Source: Candidatus Alcyoniella australis
Lineage (GTDB): Bacteria; Lernaellota; Lernaellaia; JAVCCG01; Alcyoniellaceae
Direction: 5' to 3'
Assembly (NCBI GenBank): GCA_030765605.1
Contig: JAVCCG010000036.1
Location: 1-28,751 of the forward strand
Length of the DNA: 28,751 nt
Positions 1 to 28,696 of the stretch are shown one piece after another. How positions within the stretch are numbered: the first letter of the stretch is position 1; every line of letters begins with the position of its first letter. The notes beneath the pieces are model-generated. The model was not told the origin of the DNA, searched no databases, and saw nothing but the letters and a program-made list of their open reading frames with translations. Position numbers and translations under genes: made by a program.

Positions 1-218
1 AAAACCATTTGTCGCGTCTAAGACTCGAGGGTCGAAGGGAATGCCACGGGTTGCATGGTGAATCGTTTTAGTTAATCTCGAGCCAATACTTCCGGCGAGC
101 CTACACACAAAGATCGATATCTCGATCTTTACCCCCATCTCCCCAATGCTTATTCGCGGAGTGGATCGTTGCCTAACGACCAGCGAACTACGCGAGCCCT
201 GCACCCGGCTCAAAGCCG
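1..218 (+). repeat. Left copy of 218-bp inverted repeat bounding the window
   Basis: Bases 1-218 match the reverse complement of 28479-28696 without gaps. By hand alignment there are 7 mismatches, 4 of them in the 6-nt loop of the head hairpin at 117-122. The match begins at the very first base of the window, so the left edge may be an assembly break inside a repeat. Confidence 0.85.
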
Positions 219-304
219 TCGACGCGGGGTGGGTCGATGTATTACGACCAGCGAACTACGCGAGTTTTGTAGCACCTCAAAGGTGCCGTGAGTTTTGTGC
301 CGCC
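1..304 (+). repeat. Hairpin-repeat array A (head plus modules)
   Basis: There is no gene here. Bases 1-165 are the head shared with arrays C and D, including a hairpin with arms 109-116 (AAAGATCG) and 123-130 (CGATCTTT). Then come two module pairs. The first has an L hairpin (TCGTT 166-170, AACGA 175-179) and an H hairpin (CGGCT 206-210, loop CAA, AGCCG 214-218). The second has an L hairpin (GGTCG 232-236, CGACC 245-249) and an H hairpin (GCACCT 272-277, loop CAA, AGGTGC 281-286). A partial third H module (GTGAGTTTTGTGCCGCC) runs into the stop codon of the minus-strand gene at 305. The open frames across it look spurious. Confidence 0.85.
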
Positions 305-2365
305 TCAATCCGGGTCGCAGGGTCCGTCGCAGTATTGGACGACCTCGCCAGTTGCCAGCAAGTGCGATACCTGCTGCATCACGTGGGGCAGGAACACCAC
401 ATCGGAGTGCACGTTGTTGTCCACGGTGGGCGGGACGTTCGATTCCGGCGGCGGATTGGCCTGGGCCTGCTCGACCAAGTGGTACTGCACCATTACCGGA
501 GCAGTCGTCGGCGAAGGAATGATATTCAACCCGTAAACCGGGTAGATCGAGGGCTGGATCAACGCCGCCCCTGTTGAGCGCGCCAGCATCTCGGTGGCGA
601 TGTTGGGCACCTGGCAGTCGCCGATCGATTCCTGGATCAGGGTCACGCGATCCGGCGGCGCATCGGGCAGCGGTTCGTAGTAAAGCAGCCGCGTGAGGTT
701 CACCGGGTCGGAGAGGTCGAACCGCGACTGGATCAGTGCGATTCCTATCTGCTGGGCCAGCGGATCGGGGTATTTCAGGTCGAGCACCAGTTTGACCGGC
801 AGCCAGTTGATCGAGCGCGTGAACATGTTGAGCCAGACCGAGCCGGGAACCGCAAACACGCCGCGCGAGACGCGGTCGGAGATCGAGACGAACGACGAGC
901 CCTGGATTCCGCCGAGGCTCACGCCGTAGTAGTAGACTCGGTCCGGATCGAGCAGCGCTTCCTCGGTGACCATCACGTCGGGATCGGTCGAAAGCTGGTT
1001 GAGCGCCAGTTCGGTGAGAGTCAGGTTGTTGATCAGCGACTGTTGCAGCCGGTCGGTGACCAGCGAGATGTTGTTTAGATCGGTAATCACGTTTTCGAGG
1101 ATCATGTTCATATCGCCGGCGCTCAGGCCGATCCAATCGGTGGCGATGATTACTATGCCGTTTTCCTCGGCCAGCGGCTGGATATACTTGGCGGCCCAGC
1201 CGTTGAGGTAGCTGCGCCCCGAGCCGAACAGTCCGTGGCCGAAGATCATCAGCGGCAGCGGCTCGCCCAGAGTGCGCGCCTGCTTGGGGATCACCATCGT
1301 GAACGGGAATGATTGGTTGGTCTCCTGACGGATCGGGTGGTGCAGCCCGTCGTAGTCGAAGACGCTGTTCTCGTTAAGAAACGTCGGCACCTCGAACGTG
1401 CCCTCGATCACCTTGGCCGCCCACTGGTTGGGGTCGACCTGAATCCGGGTGATGGTGTAGCCCAGGTCTCCGGCGTTCAGCGCCTCCTCGCGCATCGAGA
1501 GTATCGAGCCGAGCAGGAAGTCCTTGGAGGCGACCATGAAATCCCAGGCCAGCAGCAGTTCGTCGCGCTGGTAGCCGTTCTCTTCGAGCATGGCGAAAAT
1601 CAGCTCGTAACGCTCGCGCACCGCCTCGATCTCGGGGTTGTTGGTCAGCACGCCGTCGCGCAGCGCAACGAACGCCGGCGGGGATGTAAACGGCGCGCCG
1701 TCCACGTCGTTGAGTTCGTTGGTCAGTGCGATCACGTGGCGGTGGCCCATCTCCATCGGCGACATCGGGCGCAGGATCAGCGCGTAGCGGTCCGGGCGGG
1801 ATTCCTTGCGGTTGGCGTCCATCTCCGACATGAACAGCAGGCGCTCGCCGGTCTCGATGTCGAACAGCGCGATGGGCGAGTCCAGCGCCACCGACTCGTC
1901 GAGCTCGTCGGCAAAAGTCAGGTCGTCGGGGTCCACGTCCGCGGCAAAGTGCAGCAGGATCGGTCCGGCCGTGGACACGCCGTCGGCGTCGTTGGTCGGC
2001 CCCAGATCGAACGGCGGCATGTCCGGCGGCACGGGCAGCATGTCGTCGGGATAGTTGTTGCGCACGCCCGTGGCGCTGTTCGGATCATCGATCTGGAAAA
2101 ACGAGCTGGGATAGGGCAACACGCACTCGTCGCTGGTGGCGAACGGGTTGCAACCCGGGATCAGCTCGAGGGTAATGCGATCGTCCGCGGTTTGCGGATC
2201 GGGGGATGATGCATCGTCGTCGTCGTCGGCCGCATCGTCGTCGTCGAGTAAGTCGTCGTCATCGGCGTCGTCATCATCATCGCCCTGGGAGCAGGCGCCG
2301 AGCAAACAGGCGCATGCCACCAACGCAGACAGAAAAAGTACAAGCGCAAGCCGTTTTACCTTCAT
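305..2365 (-). CDS. Poly-Asp lipoprotein, alpha/beta-hydrolase fold, probable surface esterase/lipase
   Basis: This 686-residue exported lipoprotein is probably a serine hydrolase; its substrate is unknown. The signal peptide ends in a lipobox LGAC, with Cys25 as the lipidated residue. Residues 29-51 are an Asp-rich tether (runs of 4-5 Asp broken by Ala or Leu pairs), encoded by GAC/GAT repeats. The hydrolase part lies at roughly 350-670. It has an oxyanion-type GHGLFG (376-381), a nucleophile elbow GVSLGG with Ser483, and plausible Asp583 and His653. Residues 60-340 are a large N-terminal region I cannot assign. A GGAGG Shine-Dalgarno lies 5 nt before the ATG. Its stop codon touches hairpin array A. 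The family call is firm at fold level; the catalytic Asp and His are inferred from position. Confidence 0.85.
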   Translation of the reverse strand: MKVKRLALVLFLSALVACACLLGACSQGDDDDDADDDDLLDDDDAADDDDDASSPDPQTADDRITLELIPGCNPFATSDECVLPYPSSFFQIDDPNSATGVRNNYPDDMLPVPPDMPPFDLGPTNDADGVSTAGPILLHFAADVDPDDLTFADELDESVALDSPIALFDIETGERLLFMSEMDANRKESRPDRYALILRPMSPMEMGHRHVIALTNELNDVDGAPFTSPPAFVALRDGVLTNNPEIEAVRERYELIFAMLEENGYQRDELLLAWDFMVASKDFLLGSILSMREEALNAGDLGYTITRIQVDPNQWAAKVIEGTFEVPTFLNENSVFDYDGLHHPIRQETNQSFPFTMVIPKQARTLGEPLPLMIFGHGLFGSGRSYLNGWAAKYIQPLAEENGIVIIATDWIGLSAGDMNMILENVITDLNNISLVTDRLQQSLINNLTLTELALNQLSTDPDVMVTEEALLDPDRVYYYGVSLGGIQGSSFVSISDRVSRGVFAVPGSVWLNMFTRSINWLPVKLVLDLKYPDPLAQQIGIALIQSRFDLSDPVNLTRLLYYEPLPDAPPDRVTLIQESIGDCQVPNIATEMLARSTGAALIQPSIYPVYGLNIIPSPTTAPVMVQYHLVEQAQANPPPESNVPPTVDNNVHSDVVFLPHVMQQVSHLLATGEVVQYCDGPCDPD

Positions 2366-2463
2366 TATCGCCTCCGAACGAGTGACCCCGGTGGAACCTT
2401 TCTGCTTACGCTACGAGTCAATCTTTGTCAACTTAATCAACCTCACAGGTATTAGCCTAGCGA

Positions 2464-2499
2464 ATATGTCCCCTGTAACTGCTCTGCGATTATGTCCCC
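2464..2499. other. Pair of ATGTCCCC direct repeats in an intergenic gap
   Basis: ATATGTCCCC (2464-2473) and TTATGTCCCC (2490-2499) share ATGTCCCC at a 26-bp period. They lie between the start of the lipoprotein hydrolase gene and the end of the membrane-protein gene. This could be a scar of an insertion element or a tandem regulatory site; no transposase is present. Confidence 0.35.
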
Positions 2500-2525
2500 A
2501 TGGCAAAGATTAGAATGGAGATCGG

Positions 2526-3194
2526 TCAGAGAGTGCGGCGTCGGCGCTCGGAATCGACCGTGGCCACGATCGCGGCGTAGGCCAGGGCGAAGATCCCGAG
2601 CAGCAGCTGGAGCACCGGCTGGCTGGGGATGCACTCGGCAAAGAACGCGAAGCCGAACAGGATCAACGCTACTTTGCCCAAAAACTCGCCGCGCCAGGCG
2701 CGCACCAGACTATAGAGCAGAAACCCGGCCAACGGCGTGAGCAAAAACGCCAACGCCCAATATTGGCCCACGGGCACTGAGGATCCCTCGCCGAACATCA
2801 GCAGGTTGTGGATGTTGACCGCGTCGAACTTGTTGTGCACCACGAAAAATTGCGGCGAGTCGTAGCCCAACACCTGCTGCAGCCAGTCCGACTCCTCCAT
2901 TGCCAGCACAAAGAAGTATGCGCCGTAGAGCGCGAAGCGCGCGCGTTTGCCGCTGATCTTGACCGCCAGGACCGTCGACAGTGCGAAGGTCGCCAGGTAG
3001 CAAAGCATCTCGGCCAGTTCCACGCCGCGTCCCTCGGCCTGGAGCAGTTCCCAGTGGGTGTAGAGTTTGAACGGCCCGAACTCGGAGATCCCGGTCAGAC
3101 CAACGGCCGTGATCACCACGCCTGCGCCCACCAGCAGGGCGAGCAAGAAGATCGGATTGCGATAGCTCTCGAGCAGATGCGGCTCATCGGACAT
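2526..3194 (-). CDS. Six-helix integral membrane protein of unknown function
   Basis: From the ATG at 3194 the product has 222 residues and begins MSDEPHLLES. About six hydrophobic helices are visible, the first starting at NPIFLLALLV. Between helices 3 and 4 there is a conserved-looking MEESDWLQQ and, 22 residues further on, NIHNL. This resembles bacterial membrane proteins carrying EE-x-x-W-x-Q and N-x-HN motifs; that is a weak, family-level resemblance. The start at 3194 is preferred over the ATG at 3209, because a perfect TATAAT (3201-3206) lies only 6 nt upstream of it and would fall inside the longer frame. There is no Shine-Dalgarno, which suggests a leaderless message. It is divergent from the hydrolase gene at 3278. 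The function is unknown. Confidence 0.8.
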   Translation of the reverse strand: MSDEPHLLESYRNPIFLLALLVGAGVVITAVGLTGISEFGPFKLYTHWELLQAEGRGVELAEMLCYLATFALSTVLAVKISGKRARFALYGAYFFVLAMEESDWLQQVLGYDSPQFFVVHNKFDAVNIHNLLMFGEGSSVPVGQYWALAFLLTPLAGFLLYSLVRAWRGEFLGKVALILFGFAFFAECIPSQPVLQLLLGIFALAYAAIVATVDSERRRRTL

Positions 3195-3200
3195 GGCCGC

Positions 3201-3206
3201 ATTATA
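3201..3206 (-). promoter_or_regulatory. -10 element TATAAT for the membrane-protein gene
   Basis: On the minus strand TATAAT is followed by GCGGCC and then the ATG at 3194. Transcription starting about 7 nt downstream would begin at the start codon. There is no convincing -35 at 17 nt (GCGCAA). Confidence 0.5.
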
Positions 3207-3223
3207 CATGGGCCGGCAACGGC

Positions 3224-3253
3224 TTGCGCCGGGCGCCGCGGCCTGTCTATGAT
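3224..3253 (+). promoter_or_regulatory. Candidate sigma70 promoter for the alpha/beta-hydrolase gene
   Basis: TTGCGC (3224-3229) and TATGAT (3248-3253) are separated by 18 bp. The Shine-Dalgarno AGGAGG (3269-3274) and the ATG at 3278 follow at fitting distances. The region overlaps the divergent promoter of the membrane-protein gene. Confidence 0.45.
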
Positions 3254-3277
3254 CCGGAAACGGAACCAGGAGGATCG

Positions 3278-4369
3278 ATGTTGAACAAGAGCAAGATCGA
3301 GGGAATCCAGAAGGGGAGTTTCGAGAGCTTCGACGGCACGCGGATCGCCTATCAGTCCGTGGGCCAGGGCCCGCCGCTGGTTTTCGCCAACGGGCTGGGC
3401 GGCACGTTCAACGCCTGGTGCTATCTGTTCAACCACCTCAAGGCGCGCTACCGCATCGTGACCTGGGATTACCGCGGGCTCTACGCCTCCGAGCGTCCGC
3501 GGGACCTCAATACAATGACGATCCCGGTGATGGTGCGCGACATGCACTGCCTGATCGAGCACCTTAAGGTCGAGCGCCCGATCATTGCCGGTTGGTCCAT
3601 GGGCGTGCCGATTGTGATCGAGTATTACAAGGCCCACCCCGAGCAGGTGCGCGGCCTGGGCCTGATTTGCGGCAGCGCGGGACGGCCGTTCGACACGGCG
3701 TTGCACTGGGGCGGCAGCCGCTACCTGATGCCGCTGGTGTTCAACCTGCTCGAGCGGCTGCCGGGTCTTACGGGCAAGGCGATGAAGCTTTCGCTCAACC
3801 TCGAGCCGCTATTCAAGCTCGCGCAACCGTTGGGCATAGTGGCCAAGGAGGCTGACATCGAGGTCTTCAAGGAGCTGGTCGAGGACTACTCGGGCCTGGA
3901 CTTCGAGGCCTACTTCCACGTGATGAACGACATGGGGAAACAGGACGCCTGGGACTTTCTCAGCCGCATCGACGCGCCGACCTTGATCGTGGCAGCGGGC
4001 CGCGACTTCTTTACTCCGGTCTACGTCAGCGAACGCATGCACCGCCGCATTCGCGGCTCCGAGCTGCTGGTGCTGCCCAAGGGCACGCACTACGCGCCGC
4101 TGGAGTTCCCCAGCGAGATCAACGCGGGCATGGATAAGTTCCTCGACCGCATGGAGCGCACCAACCCCCTGCCCGTTAAAGCCGCGCCCAAGCCGAAGCC
4201 CAAACCCAAGGCCAAAGCCAAAGCCGCTGTTAAAGCAAAGCCCAAACCTGCGCTAAAAAAGACGGTCGGCAAACCTAAACCTAAAGCCGCTGCTAAAGCC
4301 GTGGCCAAGGCCAAAGCCAAACCGAAGACTGCTGTAAAGGCCAAACCAAAGCCTAAAAAACGGAAGTGA
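3278..4369 (+). CDS. Alpha/beta hydrolase with Lys/Ala/Pro-rich C-terminal tail
   Basis: This is a 363-residue cytoplasmic-looking alpha/beta hydrolase without a signal peptide. Residues 1-295 form a complete fold, with GWSMG carrying nucleophile Ser107, GRDFFTP with Asp243 and GTHYAP with His271. It resembles the broad esterase/peroxidase-like group, so the substrate cannot be named. Residues 301-363 form a low-complexity basic tail of KPKA/KAKP repeats ending KKRK, similar in composition to histone H1-like or AlgP-type tails. Such a tail could bind nucleic acid, polyphosphate or the membrane surface; this is inference. The ATG at 3278 is chosen over one 18 codons upstream because AGGAGG lies 3 nt before it. 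Its 3' end faces the C25 peptidase gene across hairpin array B. Confidence 0.9.
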   Translation: MLNKSKIEGIQKGSFESFDGTRIAYQSVGQGPPLVFANGLGGTFNAWCYLFNHLKARYRIVTWDYRGLYASERPRDLNTMTIPVMVRDMHCLIEHLKVERPIIAGWSMGVPIVIEYYKAHPEQVRGLGLICGSAGRPFDTALHWGGSRYLMPLVFNLLERLPGLTGKAMKLSLNLEPLFKLAQPLGIVAKEADIEVFKELVEDYSGLDFEAYFHVMNDMGKQDAWDFLSRIDAPTLIVAAGRDFFTPVYVSERMHRRIRGSELLVLPKGTHYAPLEFPSEINAGMDKFLDRMERTNPLPVKAAPKPKPKPKAKAKAAVKAKPKPALKKTVGKPKPKAAAKAVAKAKAKPKTAVKAKPKPKKRK

Positions 4370-4377
4370 GCCGCCTC

Positions 4378-4552
4378 CGCGACGCGGAAACGGGGTGGGT
4401 CGTGGCCTTACAACCGGAGAGGCGAGCCTTGCTCCCGACTCAAAGCCGGGCGCTCGCGTGTTTTGCTGTAGCTCCAAGCGGTGGTCGCGGGGCGGATCGT
4501 TGGATTAGGACCAGCGTTCTGCGCGTGTTTTGTGGCAGCTCCAAGCTGCCGC
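4378..4552 (+). repeat. Hairpin-repeat array B between convergent genes
   Basis: Modules in order: an L-like GGGTGGGTCGTGGCCTTACA; an H hairpin CCCGACT-CAA-AGCCGGG (4434-4450, one mismatch); a decayed H module around GTAGCTCCAAGCGG; an L module GGATCGTTGGATTAGGACC; and a perfect H hairpin GGCAGCT-CCA-AGCTGCC (4534-4550). The last hairpin ends 2 nt before the stop codon (4553-4555) of the minus-strand gene. It lacks a U-tract in either direction, so it does not look like a standard terminator. Confidence 0.8.
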
Positions 4553-5857
4553 TTAGGGCCGGTAGGTCAGTGCCGGGTCGCCATAGATCGTGAAGCCGAA
4601 AATGTTGCGTAGGTAAAGCTGCGGCTCATAGCCCATCTTCAGGAAAAAGTTGTCCATGTAATTGTTGATCCCGTCGCGGAACGATGTGCCCAGCGGCAGG
4701 CCGTCGACGATGAATTCCTCGATAGTAATAATGAACGTCAGAGACCCCTCGCCCAAATCGCCGGGGTGGGTCACGGTGGTCGAGCCGATGAATCCCGCCG
4801 CCTTGTCCGCCAGCAGCGCGTGGCCCAGGCTGTACTCGGTGGCCTTGGCATTGGAGCAGGCGCTGGAGAAGACCACGCTCGGGGCTGATCCGCCCACGTC
4901 CGGAAGGTCGGCCACGCGGAAGAAACGTTCGTTGTCGTAGCCGGTGTAGGCGGCAAAGGCGCTGCCGTGACAGGCCCACATCACGAACCCCAGGTCGTGG
5001 CCGTTCCAATAATCGATGAAGGCCGAGCTCTCCAGCGGGATCTCGGGCACGGCGAGGTTGTCGTCGGCATAGGCGCGGGTCACGTTGAATCCCGCTGGCG
5101 CCAGGGTCTGAGTACGAATCACCTCCATGATGATCGAGGAATCGCCCTCGAGCTGAATGCGTCCCGCGGCGAGCATTACGTCGTTCTTGTACGCGGCGTT
5201 GGATCCGGTCCAATCGACGATTCGCGCTGCAACCGCTGCGACCTGCTGCGGATCGTCCAGCGGGATGCGCCCCACCAGCAGCTCGGCATTGAAGTCCATG
5301 GCGTCGTCGCCGTACTCGCCGTAGAACCCGTCGCCGTCCGAGTCCCAGGCCGAGGTCAGGTCGGAATAGTAGAAATCGGTGAGCGTGGTGTACTCGCCCT
5401 GAGCCGAGTGATTGAGCGGATCGAGGTACGCGGTGCACATCGGCAGCAGCGCGTGGGAACCGATCAACAGCACGTACTGGGTGCGGCTCGGGTCGTACTC
5501 GCCCAGCAGGTAATCGCGCAACGCGACCATCATCTGCTCGGCGTCGCCCTTAATTCCGAGCTGCTCGAGGTTGGTCGATTTCACCGAGAGCCCCTCGTCG
5601 TGACGCAAAGCCTTGAGCTCCATGGCCGCGGACTCGAGATCCGGATTGGCGGCCACGATGATGTAGTCGTGTATCCCCGGATCGTCGGGCACCTGCTCGT
5701 CGCCGCCGTCGCCCGAATCGTCGCCGTCTCCGGGATTATCGCCATCGGCCGGATCGCCGTCATCGTCGTCGTCGTCTCCACCGGAGCAGGCGCAGAGACT
5801 CAACACGGCGCACAGCGCCAGGATTAGCCACAATCTACCAGTATGCTTGAACATCAT
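4553..5857 (-). CDS. C25 (gingipain-like) cysteine peptidase lipoprotein with poly-Asp linker
   Basis: This 434-residue exported protein belongs to the caspase-fold C25 peptidase group. The N-terminus has a signal peptide and a lipobox near LCAC (Cys24), followed by an acidic Asp/Gly linker (28-60). The C25 pattern is clear. It shows YVLLIGSHALLP (128-139), a DFYYSDL block with an acidic DSDGDG stretch (161-177), VGRIP (195-199), catalytic His297 in CHGS and Cys334 in SSACS, and a terminal IYGDPAL. It lacks the long C-terminal adhesin or sorting domains of Porphyromonas gingipains, so a lipid anchor probably holds it. Two adjacent ATGs are possible; GAGGGG directly precedes the first, so the second (5854) has slightly better spacing. 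The substrate is unknown. Confidence 0.88.
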   Translation of the reverse strand: MMFKHTGRLWLILALCAVLSLCACSGGDDDDDDGDPADGDNPGDGDDSGDGGDEQVPDDPGIHDYIIVAANPDLESAAMELKALRHDEGLSVKSTNLEQLGIKGDAEQMMVALRDYLLGEYDPSRTQYVLLIGSHALLPMCTAYLDPLNHSAQGEYTTLTDFYYSDLTSAWDSDGDGFYGEYGDDAMDFNAELLVGRIPLDDPQQVAAVAARIVDWTGSNAAYKNDVMLAAGRIQLEGDSSIIMEVIRTQTLAPAGFNVTRAYADDNLAVPEIPLESSAFIDYWNGHDLGFVMWACHGSAFAAYTGYDNERFFRVADLPDVGGSAPSVVFSSACSNAKATEYSLGHALLADKAAGFIGSTTVTHPGDLGEGSLTFIITIEEFIVDGLPLGTSFRDGINNYMDNFFLKMGYEPQLYLRNIFGFTIYGDPALTYRP

Positions 5858-5915
5858 CCCCTCGCGGATAGTCCCCTGTGAGGTGAATTATACACCAGCT
5901 CCGCACAATGCCGCG

Positions 5916-8534: not shown

Positions 8535-8608
8535 ACATTATCCTTTCATCCGTTGCGAGCCGATGACGTTAGAACCTTTACCCCGGCAGATCAAGAGAAC
8601 CCTTGGGG

Positions 8609-8988
8609 AAGGGAGGGAATGCCACGGAGGGCATGGTGAATTGTTTTAGATAATTTTGAGCCAATGCCCCGCGAGCGCTCACCAAATAATGCTATTCAAC
8701 ATTATTACCCACCCCCATCTTCCGCCGCGGAGAGGGTCGTTGGATTACAACCAGCGTTCTGCGCGAGCCTTGCCCCCGGCTCAAAGCCGGGCGCGGAGAG
8801 GGTCGTTGGATTACAACCAGCGTTCTGCGCGAGCCTTGCCCCCCGCTCAAAGCCGGGCGCAGGGCGGATCGTTGGATTAGGACCAGCGAACTATGCGAGC
8901 TTTGCTGCGGCTGATAACCGCCTCAAGGCCGCCGTCGCGGAGAGGGTCGCTGGTTAACGACCCTGGTGCTGTGCGAGTTATGCGGCGC
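8609..8988 (+). repeat. Hairpin-repeat array C (diverged head plus four modules)
   Basis: The gene-free stretch 8535-8988 holds the M16 leader (8535-8608, with its Shine-Dalgarno) and this array. The head (about 8609-8730) matches heads A and D at AATGCCACGG, GCATGGTGAAT, GTTTTAG, GAGCCAAT and CCCCCATCT. Its hairpin, however, is AATAATG (8685-8691) with CATTATT (8700-8706), unrelated in sequence to the AAAGATCG stem of A and D. Two tandem 66-bp units follow. Then comes an L module with GCGG/CCGC (8907-8910, 8918-8921), then an L hairpin GGGTCG/CGACCC and a truncated H module that ends at the gyrB stop codon. Confidence 0.82.
8727..8858 (+). repeat. Tandem duplication of a 66-bp L+H unit
   Basis: Units 8727-8792 and 8793-8858 differ at one base by hand alignment. 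The H hairpin of the first is CCCGGCT-CAA-AGCCGGG (8775-8791); the one change introduces a mismatch into the stem of the second. This points to a recent duplication. Confidence 0.85.
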
Positions 8989-12541
<3,553 letters not shown>

Positions 12542-12793
12542 GGCCGCGTCCGTGCTCCTTATATGTTCTATGTATTATAGTCTTCTAGTATTAGTATTAT
12601 CGCCTGTGAATTTGTGGATCGAGCGTACAACTGCCCGGTGCCAAAGGCAAACCTCCTGGTGATAAAGTATGGACCGTGCTGTGTACCGATCGACCCAATC
12701 TGTGAACAACCGACTTGTCCACAATTGATCCCCCGAACGACTCCCAGGCTTTTAACACCCCTTGCATCCCCCTGATTGGCCGCCGTCTGCGGC
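12542..12793. other. dnaA-dnaN intergenic region, candidate oriC segment
   Basis: This 252-bp gap contains DnaA-box-like 9-mers: TGTGAACAA (12701-12709) and TTGTCCACA (12715-12723), facing each other across 5 bp, and a weaker TGTGGATCG (12613-12621). An AT-rich stretch at about 12558-12600 contains TAGTAT repeats and could be an unwinding element. Boxes plus an AT-rich tract beside dnaA fit an origin. This was not tested by skew or experiment. Confidence 0.6.
12574..12579 (-). promoter_or_regulatory. -10 element TATAAT upstream of dnaN
   Basis: A perfect TATAAT on the minus strand would place a transcript start about 26 nt before the dnaN ATG, leaving AAGGAG in the leader. No good -35 is visible at 17 nt. 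Confidence 0.4.
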
Positions 12794-14140
12794 TCAACCC
12801 TTGCTCAGCGTCTTGAGCAGCGAATCGATCTCGCCGCTGAGGTTGATGTCTTCCTGCATTTTCTTGACGATGCGGTTCACCGCGTGGATCACCGTCGAGT
12901 GGTCCTTGCCGCCGAAGCGCTGGCCGATCTCGGGGTAGCTGGCCTCGGTGATCTTGCGGCTGAGGTACATCGCCACCTGACGCGGGTGGGCGATGATCTT
13001 GGGCTTCCTGTGTCCGCGCAGGTCGTGGACCTTGACGTGGTAGTAGTCGGCCACGGTTTTCTGGATGTCCTCGATCGTCGGCCGATGGTTCTTGTCGCGG
13101 ATCATATGCTTGAGCACCTCTCGCGCCAGCTCGACGGTGAGCTGCTTGCCCGAGAGCGAGGCGAAAGCGTGAGCGCGGATATAGGCGCCCTCGAGTTCGC
13201 GGATGTTGTTGCGGAAGTTGCTCGCCAAAAACAGCGCCACGTCGTCGGGCAGGTCGGCGCGTTCTTTTTTGGCCTTGGCGATCAGGATCGCGATGCGCGT
13301 CTCGAGCTCGGGCGGCGCGATGTCGGCGATCAGCCCCCACTCGAAACGGCTGCGCAGCCGCTCCTCGAGGCCCGGGATGTCCTTGGGGAACTTGTCCGAG
13401 GTCATCACGATCTGGCGCTCGGTCTCGTACAGCGAGTTGAAGGTGTGGAAGAACTCCTCCTGGGTGCGCTCCTTGCCCGTCAGGAACTGGATGTCGTCGA
13501 TCAGCAGCACGTCGCAGCCGTTGCGGAACTTGTTGCGGAAAGCCTGAATGCGGTTGTGCTGCAACGACATGATCATCTCGTTCATGAACGTCTCGGCGGT
13601 GATGTACAGCACGCGCATGTCCGACCACTTGCGCATCACGTGGTTGCCGATGGCGTTGAGGATGTGCGTCTTGCCCAATCCCACGCCGCCGTAAATGAAC
13701 AGCGGGTTGTAGCTGCGTCCCGGATTGTTGGCCACCGAGTTGCACGCCGCGTAGCAGAACTGATTGCTCGGGCCGACGATGAACTGGCTGAACGAGAACT
13801 GCGCGTTGAGCTTTTTGCGCTCGTTGCGCTTGGCGCGATGTCGGCGATCCACCGGCGGCGTGGTCTCGTCGTTGAGCAGGCTCAGTTGGGCCTTACCCTT
13901 GGCCTCGTTGATCATAAACTTTAACTGATAGTGACGACCGGTCAGCTCGTGCAACGCCTCTTTGGTAATCGAGATGTATTTCTCGAGAAACACCTCTTTG
14001 GCGTACTTGCTCGGGACCTCCAGGGTCATGGAACTTTCCTCGGCGTCGACGAACTCGACGGGCTCGACCCACGCCGACCAGGCCTGAGCCGGCACGCGTG
14101 AGCGCAGCAACTGAGCCGTCTCGGTCCAAACAGTCTTCAT
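12794..14140 (-). CDS. dnaA: Chromosomal replication initiator DnaA
   Basis: This is the AAA+ initiator that binds DnaA boxes and opens oriC. From the ATG at 14140 the product has 448 residues. Domain I begins MKTVWTETAQLL. The AAA+ core has Walker A GGVGLGKT (151-158), Walker B VLLIDD (211-216) and NNIRELEGA (311-319). Domain IV has the DNA-binding signature GGKDHSTVIHA (410-420). The upstream ATG at 14254 would add 38 residues unlike DnaA and overlap the DnaA-box-like sites, so it is rejected. A GAGG sequence lies 5 nt before the chosen start. DnaA-box-like sites on both sides of the gene suggest autoregulation and origin function. Confidence 0.98.
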   Translation of the reverse strand: MKTVWTETAQLLRSRVPAQAWSAWVEPVEFVDAEESSMTLEVPSKYAKEVFLEKYISITKEALHELTGRHYQLKFMINEAKGKAQLSLLNDETTPPVDRRHRAKRNERKKLNAQFSFSQFIVGPSNQFCYAACNSVANNPGRSYNPLFIYGGVGLGKTHILNAIGNHVMRKWSDMRVLYITAETFMNEMIMSLQHNRIQAFRNKFRNGCDVLLIDDIQFLTGKERTQEEFFHTFNSLYETERQIVMTSDKFPKDIPGLEERLRSRFEWGLIADIAPPELETRIAILIAKAKKERADLPDDVALFLASNFRNNIRELEGAYIRAHAFASLSGKQLTVELAREVLKHMIRDKNHRPTIEDIQKTVADYYHVKVHDLRGHRKPKIIAHPRQVAMYLSRKITEASYPEIGQRFGGKDHSTVIHAVNRIVKKMQEDINLSGEIDSLLKTLSKG

Positions 14141-14205
14141 TTCGGCCTCATTTCCCGTGGCGATAGTGGCTTTAATACCAAGAATTACAGGTCTCGATCC
14201 CCAGT

Positions 14206-14237
14206 TTGTCCACAGGGAATTCCACAGCTGTTGATAA
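14206..14237. promoter_or_regulatory. DnaA-box-like sites upstream of dnaA
   Basis: TTGTCCACA (14206-14214) matches the TTATCCACA consensus at 8 of 9 positions. TGTTGATAA (14229-14237) is TTATCAACA on the minus strand, also 8 of 9. A weaker AATTCCACA (14218-14226) lies between them. The cluster ends 66 bp before the dnaA start and fits autoregulation or part of the origin. The rest of the 14141-14421 gap is moderately AT-rich, with a weak CAATCCACA at 14364. Confidence 0.6.
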
Positions 14238-14421
14238 CGCAAAACCAGGCGCAAAGGTCGCGTTCAAATGTGAAATCTTCTTGCATAACAACATCTTAGG
14301 GGTTGAGACGAATAAGAGGGGGAACCAATCCAGACCTCCTGATTCAGATCATAATAAGTACCACAATCCACATGAACTGTAAAGATGAAAAACCAACCTT
14401 GGGCAATCGCGCGAATCGGTT

Positions 14422-15895: not shown

Positions 15896-16711
<816 letters not shown>

Positions 16712-16734
16712 TCCGACTTGCATTGGCAAACCAC

Positions 16735-16768
16735 AAGGGACGGGGCATTGGCCCTGTCCCTTTTTTTT
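16735..16768 (+). terminator. Rho-independent terminator
   Basis: The stem GGGACGGGGC (16737-16746) pairs with GCCCTGTCCC (16751-16760), with one G-T wobble and loop ATTG, followed by eight T residues (16761-16768). It ends transcription of the lipoprotein gene. Confidence 0.92.
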
Positions 16769-16797
16769 CGTCCGGCATTTTCGACATGGGGGCAAGG

Positions 16798-16913
16798 CTC
16801 GCATAGTTCGTTGGTCGTAATGCAACGATCCACCCCCATCTTCCGTCGTGGGGAAGGTCGTCGAGCTACGACCATGGTTCGCTCGCGAATTTTGCTGCGG
16901 CTCCAAGCCGCCT
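16798..16913. repeat. Hairpin-repeat element E (inverted module pair)
   Basis: A minus-oriented L module (16798-16831) is followed by the CCCCCATCTTCC stretch typical of array heads. That stretch can pair as CTTCC/GGAAG around GTCGTGG. A plus-oriented L hairpin GGTCGT/ACGACC and an H hairpin GCGGCT-CCA-AGCCGC (16897-16911) follow. It fills the gap between the terminator and lepB. Confidence 0.75.
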
Positions 16914-16920
16914 GTAGAAT
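16892..16920 (+). promoter_or_regulatory. Candidate lepB promoter partly built from a repeat hairpin
   Basis: TTGCTG (16892-16897), part of the conserved module text, and TAGAAT (16915-16920) are separated by exactly 17 bp, and that spacer contains most of the H hairpin. The predicted transcript start is 0-2 nt before the lepB ATG, so the message may be leaderless. Confidence 0.5.
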
Positions 16921-16928
16921 GGCGGCCG

Positions 16929-17900: not shown

Positions 17901-17902
17901 GC

Positions 17903-19591: not shown

Positions 19592-19600
19592 GGTAGCGCG

Positions 19601-21163: not shown

Positions 21164-21191
21164 CGCGCCGCGACAAAAGGGCTTTAAAGAC

Positions 21192-21220
21192 TTGACTTTA
21201 GCCCATTGTCAACCGATATT
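21192..21220 (+). promoter_or_regulatory. Candidate promoter for the DAGK-like gene
   Basis: TTGACT (21192-21197) and GATATT (21215-21220) are separated by 17 bp. The ATG at 21228 is 7 nt beyond the -10, with no Shine-Dalgarno, so the message would be essentially leaderless. Confidence 0.45.
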
Positions 21221-21227
21221 CCCCACC

Positions 21228-22223
21228 ATGGAACACGAGCTGGAGCCAACGACGCCGATGCGCGTACGGATATTGATCAACGCCAATGCCAAGGCAGTGC
21301 GTTACGGCCGTATCCCGATCGAACTGTTCAATCGCTATCTGTCCGATCGGGTTTCGCTGCGCATCACCGAGGCTGTGGACCAGATCGACGACGCGATCAA
21401 CGAGTGCTGGGAGAGCGACCAGCAAGTGGTGCTGCTGGCCACGGGCGACGGCGGATTGCACCGTTTTCTCTCGAGCTTCGTCAAGGTCTACGGCCAACGA
21501 CATCTCGAGGGGGGCGCGCTTAAACCGCTGCCGGTGTTCGCCACGTTGCGCACGGGCACGGCCAACCTGATCACCGGCCTGCTGGGGGTCAAGGGCAAGC
21601 CGATCATCGCCATGCAGCGGCTGTTCGACCGGCTGTACGAGGTGCGCTCCACCGCCGACCTGCCGCTGATCAAGCAAAAGCTGCTGGCGGTCTCCGACGG
21701 CATCCAGGAGCGTTTCGGCTTTATCGCGGGCACCGGACTGCTCTACAACTTCTTCCTCGAGTACTACCAGGGCACGCGGCACAGCCTGCTTAAGTTCTTC
21801 AAGATCTTCTCGCGGATGCTGCTCTCGCTGTTTACCGGCACCGGCTATCTCAACCGGCTGCTGACATCAATGGAGGCCCGGTTGCAGCTCGACGAGCGCC
21901 GCTCCAGGCTCTCGCAGTGGAAGATGATGGCCGTGAGCACGGTGGAGACCCGCGTGGTCTTTTTCCGTGCGTTCAAGCTCGACCGGCTGGCCGAGAAGGT
22001 GCACGTCAAGGCGGGCAACCCCTCGCGCCTGGCGATCATGCGCAACCTCCCCAACCTGCTGCTCAACCGTTCGCTCAAAGGACGCGAGTTGCTGGACCAG
22101 CTGGCCCGCCGCGTGCACTACGAGCGCGAGACGGAGTTTGGCTACACCATCGACGGCGAGCTGTACAACGCCTGCTCCCTGACCCTCCAGGCCGGCCCCG
22201 AAGTCTGCTTCGTGCGGCTTTAA
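21228..22223 (+). CDS. Diacylglycerol/lipid kinase-like protein (DAGK_cat family)
   Basis: This 331-residue protein resembles the DAGK/YegS/sphingosine-kinase group, which phosphorylates lipid hydroxyls with ATP. It shows RVRILINANAKA (12-23) at the start of the nucleotide-binding fold, TGDGGLH (72-78; the family usually has GGDGT-x-N) and RTGTANL (108-114; compare P-x-GT-x-N). The Thr-to-Gly change in the first motif is unusual and may alter activity. The C-terminal half carries basic, amphipathic segments. Two starts are possible: 21228 (no Shine-Dalgarno, promoter just upstream) or 21258 (MRVRIL, with GGAG 12 nt before). It follows the GT-C-like gene by 64 bp and may have its own promoter. 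Confidence 0.75.
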   Translation: MEHELEPTTPMRVRILINANAKAVRYGRIPIELFNRYLSDRVSLRITEAVDQIDDAINECWESDQQVVLLATGDGGLHRFLSSFVKVYGQRHLEGGALKPLPVFATLRTGTANLITGLLGVKGKPIIAMQRLFDRLYEVRSTADLPLIKQKLLAVSDGIQERFGFIAGTGLLYNFFLEYYQGTRHSLLKFFKIFSRMLLSLFTGTGYLNRLLTSMEARLQLDERRSRLSQWKMMAVSTVETRVVFFRAFKLDRLAEKVHVKAGNPSRLAIMRNLPNLLLNRSLKGRELLDQLARRVHYERETEFGYTIDGELYNACSLTLQAGPEVCFVRL

Positions 22224-22228
22224 GGCGG

Positions 22229-22433
22229 GGGAGGGGCGTTGCTCAATGATTATCGCGGTGCGCGAGTCTTGTGGCGGCTCCAAGCCGCCTACGCGGGGTG
22301 GGTCGATGTATTACGACCATCGAACTACGCGAGTTTTGCAGCACCTCAAAGGTGCCCGGCTCAAAGCCGGGCGCGGGGTGAGTCGTTGCATTAGGACCAG
22401 AGAAGTATGCCAGCCGGGCGCTCGCGTGTTTTG
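22229..22433 (+). repeat. Hairpin-repeat array F between convergent genes
   Basis: H hairpins: GGCGGCT-CCA-AGCCGCC (22273-22289); GCACCT-CAA-AGGTGC (22341-22355), which shares its last base with CCCGGCT-CAA-AGCCGGG (22355-22371). An L hairpin GGTCG...CGACC precedes them. About 60 bp around 22297-22356 is nearly identical to the second unit of array A (two differences by hand). The array ends in CGCGTGTTTTG, directly against the stop codon of the minus-strand gene at 22434. Confidence 0.85.
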
Positions 22434-23114
22434 TTAGAACGCGATTCCGGCGGTTACCAGGAATGAGATCGGCAGGTAGCCCATGACGATTTCAACGTCT
22501 TGGTCGTCCTTTTCCCATTGCAGCGGCTGGATCGAGAACAGCAGGTCCGCGCGGCCTTGTGCGCCGATGATGACCGAGTAATCCTTGGTGCGGTAGACCG
22601 CGCCGTCCACGCCCAGGGCGCCCCAGGGGCCAAAGCCGGTGCCCGAGGCGGTCTCGTCGGCCTTCTCGTCGGCAAAGCCCATCCAGGCGATGGACGCGCC
22701 CAGCAGCCAGTAGGGCATGACCTTGCTGGTCTCGAACATCGGGCGGCCGAATCCGGCGGAGCCGCGAAAGATTTTCATCGTATAGTCGAACTCGGCGTCG
22801 TCGAGGTCCTCGTCTTTGTACTTGATCTCGGCCTCGCCGCTTTGCGAGGCGTAGCCCAGGTCGAAGCGCACCAGGAACTTTTTGGCGAACAGCGTGCCGT
22901 GGGCGCCGATCCAGGGGCCGAATCCGCCGATGCCGTAGAACGAGGCGTCCTCGTCGCCGGCGTCGACGTTGGCGTAGGGGATCACGCCGTAGAGGTAGGT
23001 GCCCAAGTCGAGCCCGGCCATGAAGTCGTAGCGCTCGGAGAAGTCGCGCGCCACGGCGTTGCCCGACGCGGCGAGCAGGAAAATTACCGTTGCAATCAGT
23101 GTCATTTTACGCAT
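22434..23114 (-). CDS. Probable outer-membrane beta-barrel protein
   Basis: This 226-residue exported protein has a signal peptide MRKMTLIATVIFLLAASGNAVA followed by alternating hydrophobic and polar stretches typical of beta strands (YDFMAGLDLGTYLYGV, KKFLVRFDLGYASQ, FLVTAGIAF). It ends in Phe, the usual outer-membrane barrel signature. There are no Cys residues in the mature part and no catalytic motif. A perfect AAGGAGGT lies upstream of the ATG, implying strong translation. The transporter or structural role is unknown. It lies 46 bp downstream of glmS on the same strand. Confidence 0.75.
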   Translation of the reverse strand: MRKMTLIATVIFLLAASGNAVARDFSERYDFMAGLDLGTYLYGVIPYANVDAGDEDASFYGIGGFGPWIGAHGTLFAKKFLVRFDLGYASQSGEAEIKYKDEDLDDAEFDYTMKIFRGSAGFGRPMFETSKVMPYWLLGASIAWMGFADEKADETASGTGFGPWGALGVDGAVYRTKDYSVIIGAQGRADLLFSIQPLQWEKDDQDVEIVMGYLPISFLVTAGIAF

Positions 23115-23160
23115 TGCAAACCTCCTTGCACTACGCCCAGCCTAAAGCTACGGCGCGTGG

Positions 23161-24990
<1,830 letters not shown>

Positions 24991-25015
24991 GGGCGTCGGA
25001 CCTCCCGTAGCTGGA

Positions 25016-26512
25016 TCAGGACTTCTTGTCGGGCGCGGGCTTTTTCTCGTCTTCTTCCTGCTTTGCCTGCTCGCCCTGCTCGATCTTCTGTTGGCGGACG
25101 ATCCGCAGCTTGCGCCAGCGGTCGACCCAGCCCTCTTTGGTCTCTTGGCGGGCGCGGGTCATGCTCAGCGCTCCGGCGGGCACGTCGTGGGTGATCGTCG
25201 ATCCCGAGCCGACGTAGGCGCCGCGATGGATTTTGATCGGGGCCACAAGCTGGCAGTCCGACCCGATGAACGCCTCGTCCTCGACAAGGGTCTGATATTT
25301 GCCCAGCCCGTCGTAGTTGCAGGTGATCGTGCCCGCGCCGATGTTGACGTTCTGTCCGATGTTGGCGTCGCCGATGTAGCTCATGTGATTGACCTTGCTG
25401 CCGGCGCCGATTTTGGATTTCTTGATTTCGACGTAGTTGCCGACGCTCGATCCAGCGGCCATGTCCGCTCCGGGGCGCAGGTGGGCGTTGGGGCCCACGG
25501 AGCAGCCGTGCCCGACGCTGGCCTCCTCGATCACCGAGTGCGGCCGGATGCGCGCGTCGTTGCCCACGGTGGAGTTCTCGATGTACGAGCCGAGCATCAC
25601 CTTGGTTCCCTTGCCGATGCGGGTGTTGCCGCGCAGGTGGACGACCGGCTCGATCACCGAGTCCTGGCCGATGCGCACGTCGGCGTCGATAAAGGTCGTG
25701 AACGGATCGCGGATCGAGACGCCGCGCTCCATGTGGCCGTTGTTGATCTGGTTGCGCATTACCCGTTGCGCCGAGGCCAGGTCCGAGCGCGAGTTGACGC
25801 CCAGCCCCTCGGCGGCATCGTCGAGGCACAACGCCTGCGCGGGCAGACCGCGCTCGACCGCCAGGGCGATCATATCGGTCAGATAGAACTCCTTGGCCTT
25901 GCCCTTGCCCTTCTTGAAGTTGGACTCGAGCTTTTTAATGCCGTTGAACAGGTAGCGCCCCTGGAACATGTAGATGCCGGTGTTGACCTCGTCGATCTCG
26001 CGCTGCTTGGGCTTGGCATCGCGGTATTCGATGATCTGCTGGAACGCGCCCTCGTCGTCGCGCACGATGCGGCCGTAGACCCCGGGCCGGTCAAGCTGCA
26101 TGCTCAGCACGCTCGCCGCGGCCTCGGCCTTGGCGTGGCTGCGTTGCAGCGTGCGCAACGCATCGCGCGAGATCAGCGGCACGTCGCCGCTGAGCACAAG
26201 CACGTTGCCCTTCCAGGATTTTAAATAGCGCTGGCACTGGAGCACGGCGTGCCCGGTGCCCAGCTGCTTATCCTGCTCAACGTACTCCAGTTGGAGTTTG
26301 CCGCTGCGCAGGCGCTCGGTGATCGCCTGCTGCACCTTCTCTTTTTGGTGGCCGACCACGATTACGACCTTGGCCAGCCCCAGGGCGGCCAGCGTGTCCA
26401 GGGTGTACATAATCATCGGTCGACCGGCGATCGGATGCAGCACCTTGGCCAGTTCGCTCTTCATCCGCTCGCCTTTGCCGGCGGCCAGTAAAATTGCCAT
26501 GGTATTTTTCAT
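25016..26512 (-). CDS. glmU: Bifunctional UDP-GlcNAc pyrophosphorylase/GlcN-1-P acetyltransferase
   Basis: This enzyme acetylates glucosamine-1-phosphate and couples it to UTP, giving UDP-GlcNAc. The N-terminal nucleotidyltransferase has LLAAGKGERMKS (8-19), the PKVLH-equivalent AKVLH (22-26), QLGTGHA (83-89) and LSGDVP (107-112). The C-terminal left-handed beta-helix shows many hexapeptides and the acetyltransferase stretch NHMSYIGDANIG, followed by NIGAGTITCNYDG. It has 498 residues against 456 in E. coli. The extra length is mainly a charged Lys/Glu/Gln tail after EGWVDRWRKL, probably disordered. AAGGGAG lies 8 nt before the ATG. It is sandwiched between the PilB/GspE gene (30 nt) and glmS (25 nt), consistent with one operon. 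Confidence 0.97.
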   Translation of the reverse strand: MKNTMAILLAAGKGERMKSELAKVLHPIAGRPMIMYTLDTLAALGLAKVVIVVGHQKEKVQQAITERLRSGKLQLEYVEQDKQLGTGHAVLQCQRYLKSWKGNVLVLSGDVPLISRDALRTLQRSHAKAEAAASVLSMQLDRPGVYGRIVRDDEGAFQQIIEYRDAKPKQREIDEVNTGIYMFQGRYLFNGIKKLESNFKKGKGKAKEFYLTDMIALAVERGLPAQALCLDDAAEGLGVNSRSDLASAQRVMRNQINNGHMERGVSIRDPFTTFIDADVRIGQDSVIEPVVHLRGNTRIGKGTKVMLGSYIENSTVGNDARIRPHSVIEEASVGHGCSVGPNAHLRPGADMAAGSSVGNYVEIKKSKIGAGSKVNHMSYIGDANIGQNVNIGAGTITCNYDGLGKYQTLVEDEAFIGSDCQLVAPIKIHRGAYVGSGSTITHDVPAGALSMTRARQETKEGWVDRWRKLRIVRQQKIEQGEQAKQEEDEKKPAPDKKS

Positions 26513-26542
26513 GATCTGGGCTCCCTTATCTCTGGACTGGGG

Positions 26543-28168
26543 TCAATAGACCTCGTATTTACCGTCAAGTTGCGCAGTGATCTGGCGTACCGGGATCACG
26601 CGGAACAGCTCCTCGATTGTGGTTATCCCCTGCTCGACCTTGAGCAGGCCGTCGCGCATCAGCGGCCTCATGCCCGATTCGACCGCGGTCTCGAGCATCT
26701 CGTCCATCGAGGCGTTGACCACGATCTTCTTGCTCAAATCCGAGTCGATGATCAACAGCTCGAACAGGCCGGTGCGGCCCTTGTAGCCGGTGTTGTTGCA
26801 CAGGCTGCAACCCTTGCCGCGCTTGAATTCGACCGGCCCCAGGTGCCTCTCGAGCATCGCCAGGTGGGTCGGGTCGGGCTGGTAGGGCTCGACGCAGTTG
26901 GTGCAGATTTTGCGCACCAGGCGCTGGGAAAGCACGCCGATCAGGCACGAGGCGATCATATTGGGCTCGATTCCCAGGCTGCGTAGGCGCGGGATCGAGC
27001 CGATCGAATCGTTGGTGTGCAGGGTCGAGAGAATCAGATGGCCGGTGGTTGCGGCCTTGAGCGCCACATCGGCGGTGTCCACGTCGCGGATCTCGCCGAT
27101 CAGCAGGATGTCCGGGTCGTGGCGCAGAAACGCCCGCGCCAAGTCGGCGAACCCGAGCTTGCCGCTGATCTGTTTCTGGTTGACGTAGTCCAGGGTGTAC
27201 TCGATGGGATCTTCGGCTGAGAGGATCTTGTTGTAAGGGGTTTTAATTTCCTTAAGCGTGGCGTAGAGCGTGGTCGTCTTGCCCGAGCCCGTGGGCCCGG
27301 TGACCAGGATGAACCCCTGAGGCGAGTTCACCAGTTTGCGGTAATTAACTAAATCATCGGAGGTGAAACCCAGCAGCTCAAGATCGATCGGCGCCATGGA
27401 CTTGTCCAGCACGCGCAGCACGACATCTTCGCCCGCAGGACCCGGCAGGATGCTAACCCGGAACGGAACGTCGTAATCTTCGCGATTTCGCAGGGTTCGC
27501 AGGAGGATCCGGCCGTCCTGCGGCGAGCGGTGCTCGGAAATGTCCAATTCGCTCATCACCTTGAAGCGCGAAATCACCTCTTCGACGTTCTCCTTGTTGA
27601 TAGGAGTATCGATGCGGTAGAGCATGCCGTCGATTTTGTAGCGTATCATCACCTCTTTACGGAAGTTCTCGAGGTGGATGTCCGTGGCGCCGCGGCGCAG
27701 GCCATCGAGCAGCAGATGGTTGACCAGCTCGATGATCGGGCGCTCTTCCTGGTCGAGATAGCCCACGGGCTCCAGGCCGCGGATGCGCGAAAAACCACCG
27801 ACATCACGGGACAATTCGAGATGCGGTTCGTCGATCGGCTTGGGCGGCGCCCGGCGGCCGGTATGGTCGGCGTCGAGCCGCTGGGCATCGTCGTGCTCGA
27901 CCAGCAGTTGGCCCAGGCCGTATCCCATGTTCTGGGCCCGGCTGGCCTCCTGGGTGCTTAAGGGAACGATCTCGACTTTTCGCGGTGAAAACTTACGGTT
28001 TAGGTGATCGAGCACCACCAGATCGCCGGGGTCGACCATGCCGATTGTGATCGTATCTTTGGACTGCTTGTCAACTTTTCCCAGAACGACCACGCCATTG
28101 GTCAGACTGAACAAATGCGGCAGCAATTGCACCGATTCGGGGTCAATCAGGTGATCTTTGACTTCCAT
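26543..28168 (-). CDS. Type IV pilus/type II secretion assembly ATPase (PilB/GspE family)
   Basis: This cytoplasmic hexameric motor powers pilus or pseudopilus extension. From the ATG at 28168 the product has 541 residues. The N-terminal third is divergent and has a short variable linker at 95-115. The ATPase core has Walker A GPTGSGKT (291-298), the Asp box around SAEDPIEYTLD (317-327), Walker B DILLIGEIRD (353-362) and the His box TGHLILSTLHTND (375-387). The tetracysteine zinc motif is Cys422, Cys425, Cys454 and Cys457, which marks the PilB/GspE subgroup rather than retraction PilT. The upstream ATG at 28222 is less likely: the added residues are atypical, and TATAGA lies 6 nt before 28168. 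No pilin, PilC or secretin gene is in the window, so pilus versus secretion cannot be decided. Confidence 0.95.
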   Translation of the reverse strand: MEVKDHLIDPESVQLLPHLFSLTNGVVVLGKVDKQSKDTITIGMVDPGDLVVLDHLNRKFSPRKVEIVPLSTQEASRAQNMGYGLGQLLVEHDDAQRLDADHTGRRAPPKPIDEPHLELSRDVGGFSRIRGLEPVGYLDQEERPIIELVNHLLLDGLRRGATDIHLENFRKEVMIRYKIDGMLYRIDTPINKENVEEVISRFKVMSELDISEHRSPQDGRILLRTLRNREDYDVPFRVSILPGPAGEDVVLRVLDKSMAPIDLELLGFTSDDLVNYRKLVNSPQGFILVTGPTGSGKTTTLYATLKEIKTPYNKILSAEDPIEYTLDYVNQKQISGKLGFADLARAFLRHDPDILLIGEIRDVDTADVALKAATTGHLILSTLHTNDSIGSIPRLRSLGIEPNMIASCLIGVLSQRLVRKICTNCVEPYQPDPTHLAMLERHLGPVEFKRGKGCSLCNNTGYKGRTGLFELLIIDSDLSKKIVVNASMDEMLETAVESGMRPLMRDGLLKVEQGITTIEELFRVIPVRQITAQLDGKYEVY

Positions 28169-28174
28169 CGTGAT

Positions 28175-28180
28175 TCTATA
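28175..28180 (-). promoter_or_regulatory. -10-like TATAGA upstream of the PilB/GspE gene
   Basis: The hexamer lies 6 nt before the ATG at 28168, the same spacing as TATAAT before the membrane-protein gene at 3194. There is no Shine-Dalgarno and no clear -35. The rest of 28181-28271 is AT-rich without a recognised motif. Confidence 0.35.
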
Positions 28181-28271
28181 AAAGCCTTTAATATCAGCAC
28201 ATTGCCGCCACAGACAGCGCATATTATCGAGCGCTTCGAGTCCAAAGGTAGCATAAAATGAAATAAAATCA

Positions 28272-28303
28272 AGTGTAAACTAAAATCTGTCAGTGTTTAC
28301 GCT
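28272..28303 (-). other. Inverted repeat at the end of array D
   Basis: AGTGTAAAC (28272-28280) pairs with GTTTACGCT (28295-28303) with one G-T wobble and a 14-nt loop. On the minus strand it is followed by a T-rich stretch (TGATTTTATTTCATTTTAT), so it could be a weak terminator of transcripts from array D before the PilB/GspE gene, or an operator. Confidence 0.4.
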
Positions 28304-28696
28304 CACCGCACGAGCTGGCTTTGAGCCGGCTTCGAGCCGCAGCAAAACCCGCGGCACCTTTGAGGTGCTGCAAAACTCGCGTAGGCGGCTTGGAGCCGCC
28401 ACAAGACTCGCGGCACCTTTGAGGTGCCACAAAACTCGCGTAGTTCGCTGGTAGTTGACCAACGATCCACTCCGCGCCCGGCTTTGAGCCGGGTGCAGGG
28501 CTCGCGTAGTACGCTGGTCGTTAGGCAACGATCCACTCCGCGAATAAGCATTGGGGAGATGGGGGTAAAGATCGTTAAAACGATCTTTGTGTGTAGGCTC
28601 GCCGGTAGTATTGGCTCGAGATTAACTAAAACGATTCACCATGCAACCCTTGGCATTCCCTTCGACCCTCGAGTCTTAGACGCGACAAATGGTTTT
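28304..28696 (-). repeat. Hairpin-repeat array D (head plus modules, reverse orientation)
   Basis: Read on the minus strand, it begins with the head (28696 to about 28532, hairpin arms 28567-28576 and 28579-28588). An L hairpin and an H hairpin CCCGGCT/AGCCGGG (28477-28493) follow. Further H hairpins are GGCACCT/AGGTGCC (28412-28428), GGCGGCT/AGCCGCC (28384-28400), GCACCT/AGGTGC (28354-28368) and CGGCT/AGCCG (28327-28339), the last overlapping a fused GGCT/AGCC. Loops read on the minus strand are CAA, CCA or CGA. The gene-free stretch 28169-28751 is mostly this array. 28697-28751 is unique sequence in which I see nothing. Confidence 0.85.
28479..28696 (-). repeat. Right copy of 218-bp inverted repeat bounding the window
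   Basis: This is the reverse-complement partner of bases 1-218. Most differences lie in the hairpin loop, where this copy also extends the stem by two pairs (TT/AA). Confidence 0.85.

Follow-up and report, generated by a model that had tools for sequence, protein, structure and literature searches.

What are the short GC-rich hairpins that recur between the genes of Candidatus Alcyoniella australis, and how do both arms of their stems stay complementary while the stem sequence itself changes? The question was raised by contig JAVCCG010000036.1, a stretch of 28,751 nucleotides that was analysed whole and is referred to here as the window, in which a preliminary description made from the sequence alone had listed hairpins of one plan at six intergenic sites; all of them were recovered at the positions given there. 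We found that this hairpin, hereafter module B, belongs to larger units arranged in arrays, which we consider likely to form a lineage-specific, untagged family of interspersed palindromic repeats similar to repetitive extragenic palindromes (REPs) and bacterial interspersed mosaic elements (BIMEs). This reading draws on the directly observed copy number, fixed geometry, modularity, stem swapping, covariation, intergenic confinement and seating at gene 3' ends. The family is new by sequence and of a kind, REP-like, that is already known. The earlier remark that the hairpins fit no named family therefore holds at the sequence level, as neither Rfam nor the other genomes searched contain them, but not for the kind, which matches that of REPs (Di Nocera et al., 2013, PMC3733652).

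Module B consists of GCGAGTTTTG, followed by 2-3 nt, a variable GC stem and the cap CT-CNA-AG. In 860 kb of the genome around the copies, with no cap assumed, a hairpin of at least 5 bp follows the exact prefix at 81 of 98 sites; CT-AG closes 77 of these 81 hairpins and the loop is CNA in nearly all (CAA 36, CCA 17, CTA 15, CGA 4). The reversed-sequence control returned two prefix sites and no hairpins. Such a cap-free test, which accepts any hairpin after the exact prefix, is the unbiased check of cap constancy; the search pattern that yielded the 124 distinct copies of our alignment demanded CT...AG, so that the invariance of its cap columns is partly built in. A 28-nt position matrix of the module detected 126 copies and none in the reversed sequence at equal threshold, and a covariance model trained on the 124 copies counted at least 141 in the whole genome, a lower bound, as scoring was limited to 150 candidates, that agrees with the many copies of the broad REP definition. 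The constant cap described previously is thus retained as CT-AG, but CTA joins CAA, CCA and CGA as a common loop. The constant prefix described before each hairpin also stands, with the exception of 22355-22371, which abuts the preceding hairpin and has none of its own.

Among 148 copies the dominant stems are GCAC (37), GCGG (33), CCGG (28) and GCAG (16). All classes named in the preliminary description are present, but there are more, as at least six rare stems still pair (ACAG/CTGT, CCAG/CTGG, GTGG/CCAC, GTGC/GCAC, GCGC/GCGC and CCGA/TCGG). The proposed dependence of the loop on the stem exists as a tendency (chi-square p ~1e-6), with CAA in 27/37 GCAC, 5/33 GCGG and 2/16 GCAG copies, but it is not strict, since 13/28 CCGG copies also carry CAA. 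With a stem of 6-7 bp and a loop of 3 nt, the hairpin falls within the stem-loops of 14-50 nt covered by the broad REP definition.

Imposing a 7-pair hairpin on the 124 copies gave 90.9% paired cells versus 76.5% in shuffles, 135 double-change cells versus 52.6 (standard deviation 8.1), and a covariation score of 0.391 versus 0.152; when the partner was slid by 1-3 columns, the score was at most 0.109. Because related copies can inflate such numbers, copies were also compared only where the 40 nt upstream, which lie in module A (see below), show at most 8 differences. Among 37 disjoint pairs with near-identical flanks and different stems, 61 of the 76 changed base pairs were altered on both sides and still paired, 6 were one-sided but still paired and 9 were broken, which indicates that the stem was exchanged or co-changed independently of its flank; whole stems are indeed swapped between otherwise near-identical flanks. 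As the matched changes exceed the controls and survive the flank-similarity test, module B is preserved as a fold, and the matched changes on both arms noted earlier are borne out. The further suggestion that folded RNA or single-stranded DNA is under selection is upheld as far as the fold is concerned, but matched changes alone are no proof of selection for a folded RNA, given stem exchange and the fact that template switching at palindromes can make both arm changes in one event (PMC8794818). Nor are all stems intact: the six pairs are all Watson-Crick in 98 of the 124 copies, and 26 copies have at least one that is not. Several of the latter are chimeras of two classes, such as GCGG with CCGG or GCAG with GTGT, and these point to recombination through the constant cap. 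On the B strand, G-U outnumbers A-C by 11 to 5, which represents too few independent events for a strand bias.

Upstream of module B lies module A, of about 39 nt, which occurs in several families and can fold by itself. Together they form a unit of about 67 nt with the B hairpin at its outer end. These units are spaced 64-69 nt in direct arrays, and B-only repeats 28-31 nt (a 28-nt B-B repeat). Inverted dimers share the centre CCGCG(A/T)CGCGG and carry the B hairpins outermost; in 16 of 16 outward pairs the hairpin centres are 113-117 nt apart, an arrangement of inverted pairs with a conserved spacer as in BIMEs and REPINs. The two halves usually belong to different A families and often differ in the B stem. 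Analysis of the A+B units with MAFFT and RNAalifold recovered the B helix only, the A sub-families being too different for joint alignment. Two further modules accompany these units. The C module is a 22-nt AT-rich hairpin preceded by CACAC or CACC and followed by ACC(CC), with two main stem classes in one frame, AAAGATC and AATAATG. The lead module, of about 190 nt, has a long closing stem and a multibranched interior; seven of its copies are full or end-cut and one has diverged, short fragments aside. A comparison of three copies shows 6 doubly compensated pairs, and the stretches CGAAGGGAATGCC and GCATGGTGAAT are invariant. It has no Rfam match and is a candidate structured RNA or element core. 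Of the terminal inverted repeats and target-site duplication that mark miniature inverted-repeat transposable elements of the DDE type, inverted ends were seen, and no duplication is obvious by eye, with no empty site available for comparison.

Position relative to genes was assessed on the same 860 kb plus the window, with genes predicted by a simple codon-usage caller, and absolute numbers are approximate. Almost all copies (146/148) are outside predicted genes, and among gaps of at least 60 nt, copies occur in 35/66 convergent, 19/164 tandem and 4/83 divergent ones (Fisher p 1e-13). Sixty-one copies are located no further than 60 nt from the 3' end of a gene, hairpin-first and facing the stop codon in 57, as compared with two near a gene start. 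This extragenic placement, mostly 3' of genes and often between convergent ones, is also that of the broad REP definition. About 20 hairpins start no more than a few bases from the stop codon and a few enclose it, TGA or TAG within the hairpin serving as the stop of some genes; TAG is the stop of 16/27 abutting genes versus 162/552 others (p 0.002).

The host lineage is deep, as its GyrB shares at most 59% identity with any relative returned by homology search. No match to the covariance model was found in six same-class genomes. The exact pattern occurs in none of 84,980 other species, a search from which records of the source genome or a very near one were possibly excluded, and no analogous repeat was seen in about 290 kb of three same-class relatives. 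A distant-sensitivity search of plasmids and phages gave no match; a single viral contig fitting the pattern (L080) seems to be a fortuitous match in a phage. Rfam searches of the window and of seven array loci gave nothing credible, and at loose thresholds only vertebrate microRNA and long non-coding RNA noise. A tRNA-like reading, suggested by the likeness of the 7-nt CTCNAAG on its 5-bp stem to a T-arm, was rejected: ARAGORN detected nothing in the window and no acceptor-stem partner is visible by eye. As for known mobile elements, the IS110 family is missing from the source genome under controls that worked, and the absence of IS91 (Y2) matches is uninformative, as the control genomes were equally silent. 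Several contigs break off within repeats, both ends of the window included, which is expected because assemblies tend to stop at repeats.

The likeness to published REPs extends over many traits. GTAG- and CGTC-tagged REPs are GC-rich short hairpins with 5-13-bp stems, sub-families with alternative complementary residues and short loops, often TY or CMA; they form head-to-head (outward) dimers, heterodimers included, occur in convergent gaps at <20 bp from both open reading frames, supply TAG stops and are patchily distributed among species (PMC3733652), and complementary mutations in REPs were noted even earlier (Nunvar et al., 2010, PMC2817692). The present family behaves likewise; unlike those REPs, module B is untagged, has the invariant GCGAGTTTTG flanking its stem on one side, and belongs to a family with common head-to-tail tandems, fixed dimers of about 115 bp and links to other hairpin modules, a modular framework that is unusually elaborate. 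Similar to BIMEs of Escherichia coli and REPINs of Pseudomonas, the arrays are intergenic mosaics of palindromes with constant linker motifs and inverted pairs of constant spacing, but their palindromes lack a tag and are joined to AT-rich hairpins and a structured module of about 190 nt. Several interleaved repeat families are also found in the Neisseria intergenic mosaics with dRS3 (CGTC-1), as described in PMC3733652, with different sequences and tags. Finally, as in the REPtrons of REP-associated tyrosine transposases (RAYTs) (PMC2817692; PMC8266576), one RAYT gene coexists with many palindromic repeats: it lies on contig C95 (L050:13328-13900, minus strand), encodes 190 amino acids and scores 146 bits against NF047646 (cut-off 80).

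Several observations weigh against a REP-like identity. In published descriptions two inverted REPs flank the RAYT gene (Nunvar et al., 2010, PMC2817692), but the gene found here is not bounded by module B copies, the nearest being about 3.7 kb away; because no copies stand beside it, the RAYT link is no more than a lead. The REP tags are absent: among 747 intergenic hairpins, GTAG precedes 4, GTGG 4 and CGTC 1, and CTAC follows 6 of 148 B stems. Module B thus has neither the unpaired GTAG, GTRG or GYAG 5' of the stem that marks GTAG-tagged REPs nor the CGTC tag, 8-9-bp stem, 4-5-nt loop and CCA tail of the CGTC-tagged ones, its loop being 3 nt. Direct tandem neighbours are common in this genome (45 pairs), whereas published REP families seldom contain head-to-tail dimers. 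Mobility, moreover, is deduced from dispersion, because the closest relatives compared belong to the same class only and offer no comparable empty site. Separately, a GTGG-preceded hairpin, GTGGCCGGGCGCTGATGGCCCGG, is present about 80 bp past the 3' end of the RAYT gene and may be a relic of that gene's own REP.

The seating at gene ends could also mean that the hairpin is a functional element of the 3' untranslated region (3'-UTR), selected as an mRNA 3'-end structure for stability, ribosome release or termination, with the arrays as bidirectional modules of convergent genes. The orientation of 57 of 61 gene-end copies, the strong preference for convergent gaps and the stops at TGA or TAG inside the hairpin speak for it, as do findings in E. 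coli, where hairpins up to 15 nt from a stop codon stall ribosomes and REPs at that distance are reported to reduce translation (work cited in PMC12306157). Yet such an orientation is simply what a hairpin at the outer end of its unit would have, module B is missing from about half of the convergent gaps, and the relatives do without it. The hairpin does not have the U-run of an intrinsic terminator either, CAAAACTCGC following it in gene sense and the adjacent TTTTG being often CCTTG or CCATG; gene ends that have module B show canonical terminators as rarely as those that lack it, and this lack of a trade-off led us to reject terminator replacement. On balance we regard this explanation as unlikely. 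It seems quite improbable that template switching without selection, i.e., replication errors that copy one arm onto the other with no need of the fold, accounts for the family, even though hairpins are known to undergo multibase compensation in a single event (PMC8794818) and broken stems are few and often chimeras of two classes: many random stems would then be expected, whereas four stem classes recur at unrelated sites and the CT-AG cap and CNA loop remain constant. Template switching probably contributes to the paired changes.

An undescribed family of structured non-coding RNAs with tandem genes is, in our view, very unlikely. The multibranched lead module with its compensated pairs and the excess of G-U over A-C would suit such RNAs, but Rfam has no counterpart, the units form mosaics, are cut short at gene stops and occur in one genome only, and the G-U count is small and comes from copies that are not independent. 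We assign a small chance to a mosaic mobile element of an undescribed class without a REP tag, in which constant joints (GCGAG/CTCGC) would frame interchangeable hairpin cassettes (GC-rich B, AT-rich C) around the multibranched core of about 190 nt, and which would be moved as a folded single strand by an enzyme reading joint, cap and shape rather than stem sequence. Under the REP/BIME-like reading that we favour, the units would be propagated as DNA; the simplest route would be through folded single-stranded DNA on which a putative HUH-type enzyme such as a RAYT acts, and the arrays would subsequently be amplified and exchanged by internal recombination. Insertions would survive mainly between convergent genes, where harm is least, and the hairpin would become the first 3'-UTR structure of both convergent messages, where, in the manner of E. 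coli REPs, it might influence mRNA stability or ribosome release. A need to fold at either step, aided by stem exchange or template switching, may then underlie the matched stem changes.

The features of the family in the window, together with lead module copies at other loci of the genome, are collected in the table.

Table. Modules of the repeat family, in window positions unless a locus is named.
Position	Strand	Feature	Remarks
1..101	+	Lead module, 3' part	Cut by contig end; 98% match to full C131 copy; closing stem with compensated pairs
109..130	+	C module	AAAGATCG..CGATCTTT then ACCCC; AT-rich hairpin
155..220	+	A+B unit	Weakened B hairpin (left arm CCGG, right arm CCGT)
223..288	+	A+B unit	B hairpin 272-286, GCACCTCAAAGGTGC
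289..307	+	Truncated B	Enters stop codon of minus-strand gene 305-2365
4385..4551	+	Array	Spans gap of convergent stops, genes 3224-4369 (+) and 4553-5857 (-)
4534-4550		B hairpin in array 4385..4551	GGCAGCTCCAAGCTGCC
8614..8676	+	Lead module, partial copy	82-83% match
8685..8706	+	C module	Second stem class, AATAATG..CATTATT then ACCC
8726..9001	+	Four A+B units	Last overlaps gyrB stop codon (gene 8989-11406, minus)
8775-8791		B hairpin in array 8726..9001	CCCGGCTCAAAGCCGGG
16788..16836	-	A module	Inverted, facing next unit
16838..16913	+	A+B unit	B hairpin 16897-16911, GCGGCTCCAAGCCGC
22225..22430	+	Array	Spans gap of convergent genes ending at 22223 (+) and 22434 (-)
22273-22289, 22341-22355, 22355-22371		B hairpins in array 22225..22430	Last without own prefix
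28324..28542	-	Array	
28477-28493, 28412-28428, 28384-28400, 28354-28368		B hairpins in array 28324..28542	CCCGG, GGCAC, GGCGG and GCAC, respectively
28327-28339		B hairpin in array 28324..28542	Degenerate
28567..28588	-	C module	AAAGATCGTTTTAACGATCTTT then ACCCC
28596..28751	-	Lead module, 156 of ~190 nt	Cut by contig end; 99% match to C131 copy
L062:1410-1601	+	Lead module	
L063:1548-1736	-	Lead module	
L066:1541-1729	-	Lead module	

Other modules were noticed outside the window. One with a long stem, of 155 nt, GTCGAGTGGTTTTCAT...ATGAAAACCACTCGAC, is present in L062 and L064 (reverse strand), flanked by GCGAGCAG and CTGCTCGC-like joints. Larger GC hairpins of differing sequence in L063, L064 and L065 (reverse strand) share the frame GCGCGGGGG-GAGAG ... 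CCCACACCC-ACC-TGCTCGC and are possibly a third family with exchangeable stems. As for the genes of the window, region 8989-14254 holds gyrB (homology search), the open reading frame 11423-12541, which by its position is probably dnaN, and dnaA (Pfam). The intergenic gap 14255-14421 comes next, and this is the probable replication-origin region. The minus-strand gene 4553-5857 encodes a protein with a Peptidase C25 (gingipain family) domain, and secreted-looking proteins in which a long aspartate run immediately follows a lipoprotein-like cysteine (CGGDDDDDDD) are encoded at 15896-16713 and also near 2210 and 5760.

The family described here adds a deep uncultured lineage to the carriers of REP/BIME-like repeats and shows that typical REP behaviour, i.e., complementary stem sub-families, inverted dimers and stop-codon seating, occurs without a GTAG or CGTC tag. 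It also carries a caution, as strong covariation in a repeat family need not imply a functional RNA. Because nearly the same flank carries several different intact stems, the copies constitute a natural variant set for finding out which features of such a hairpin are read by a repeat-mobilising enzyme or by the cell.

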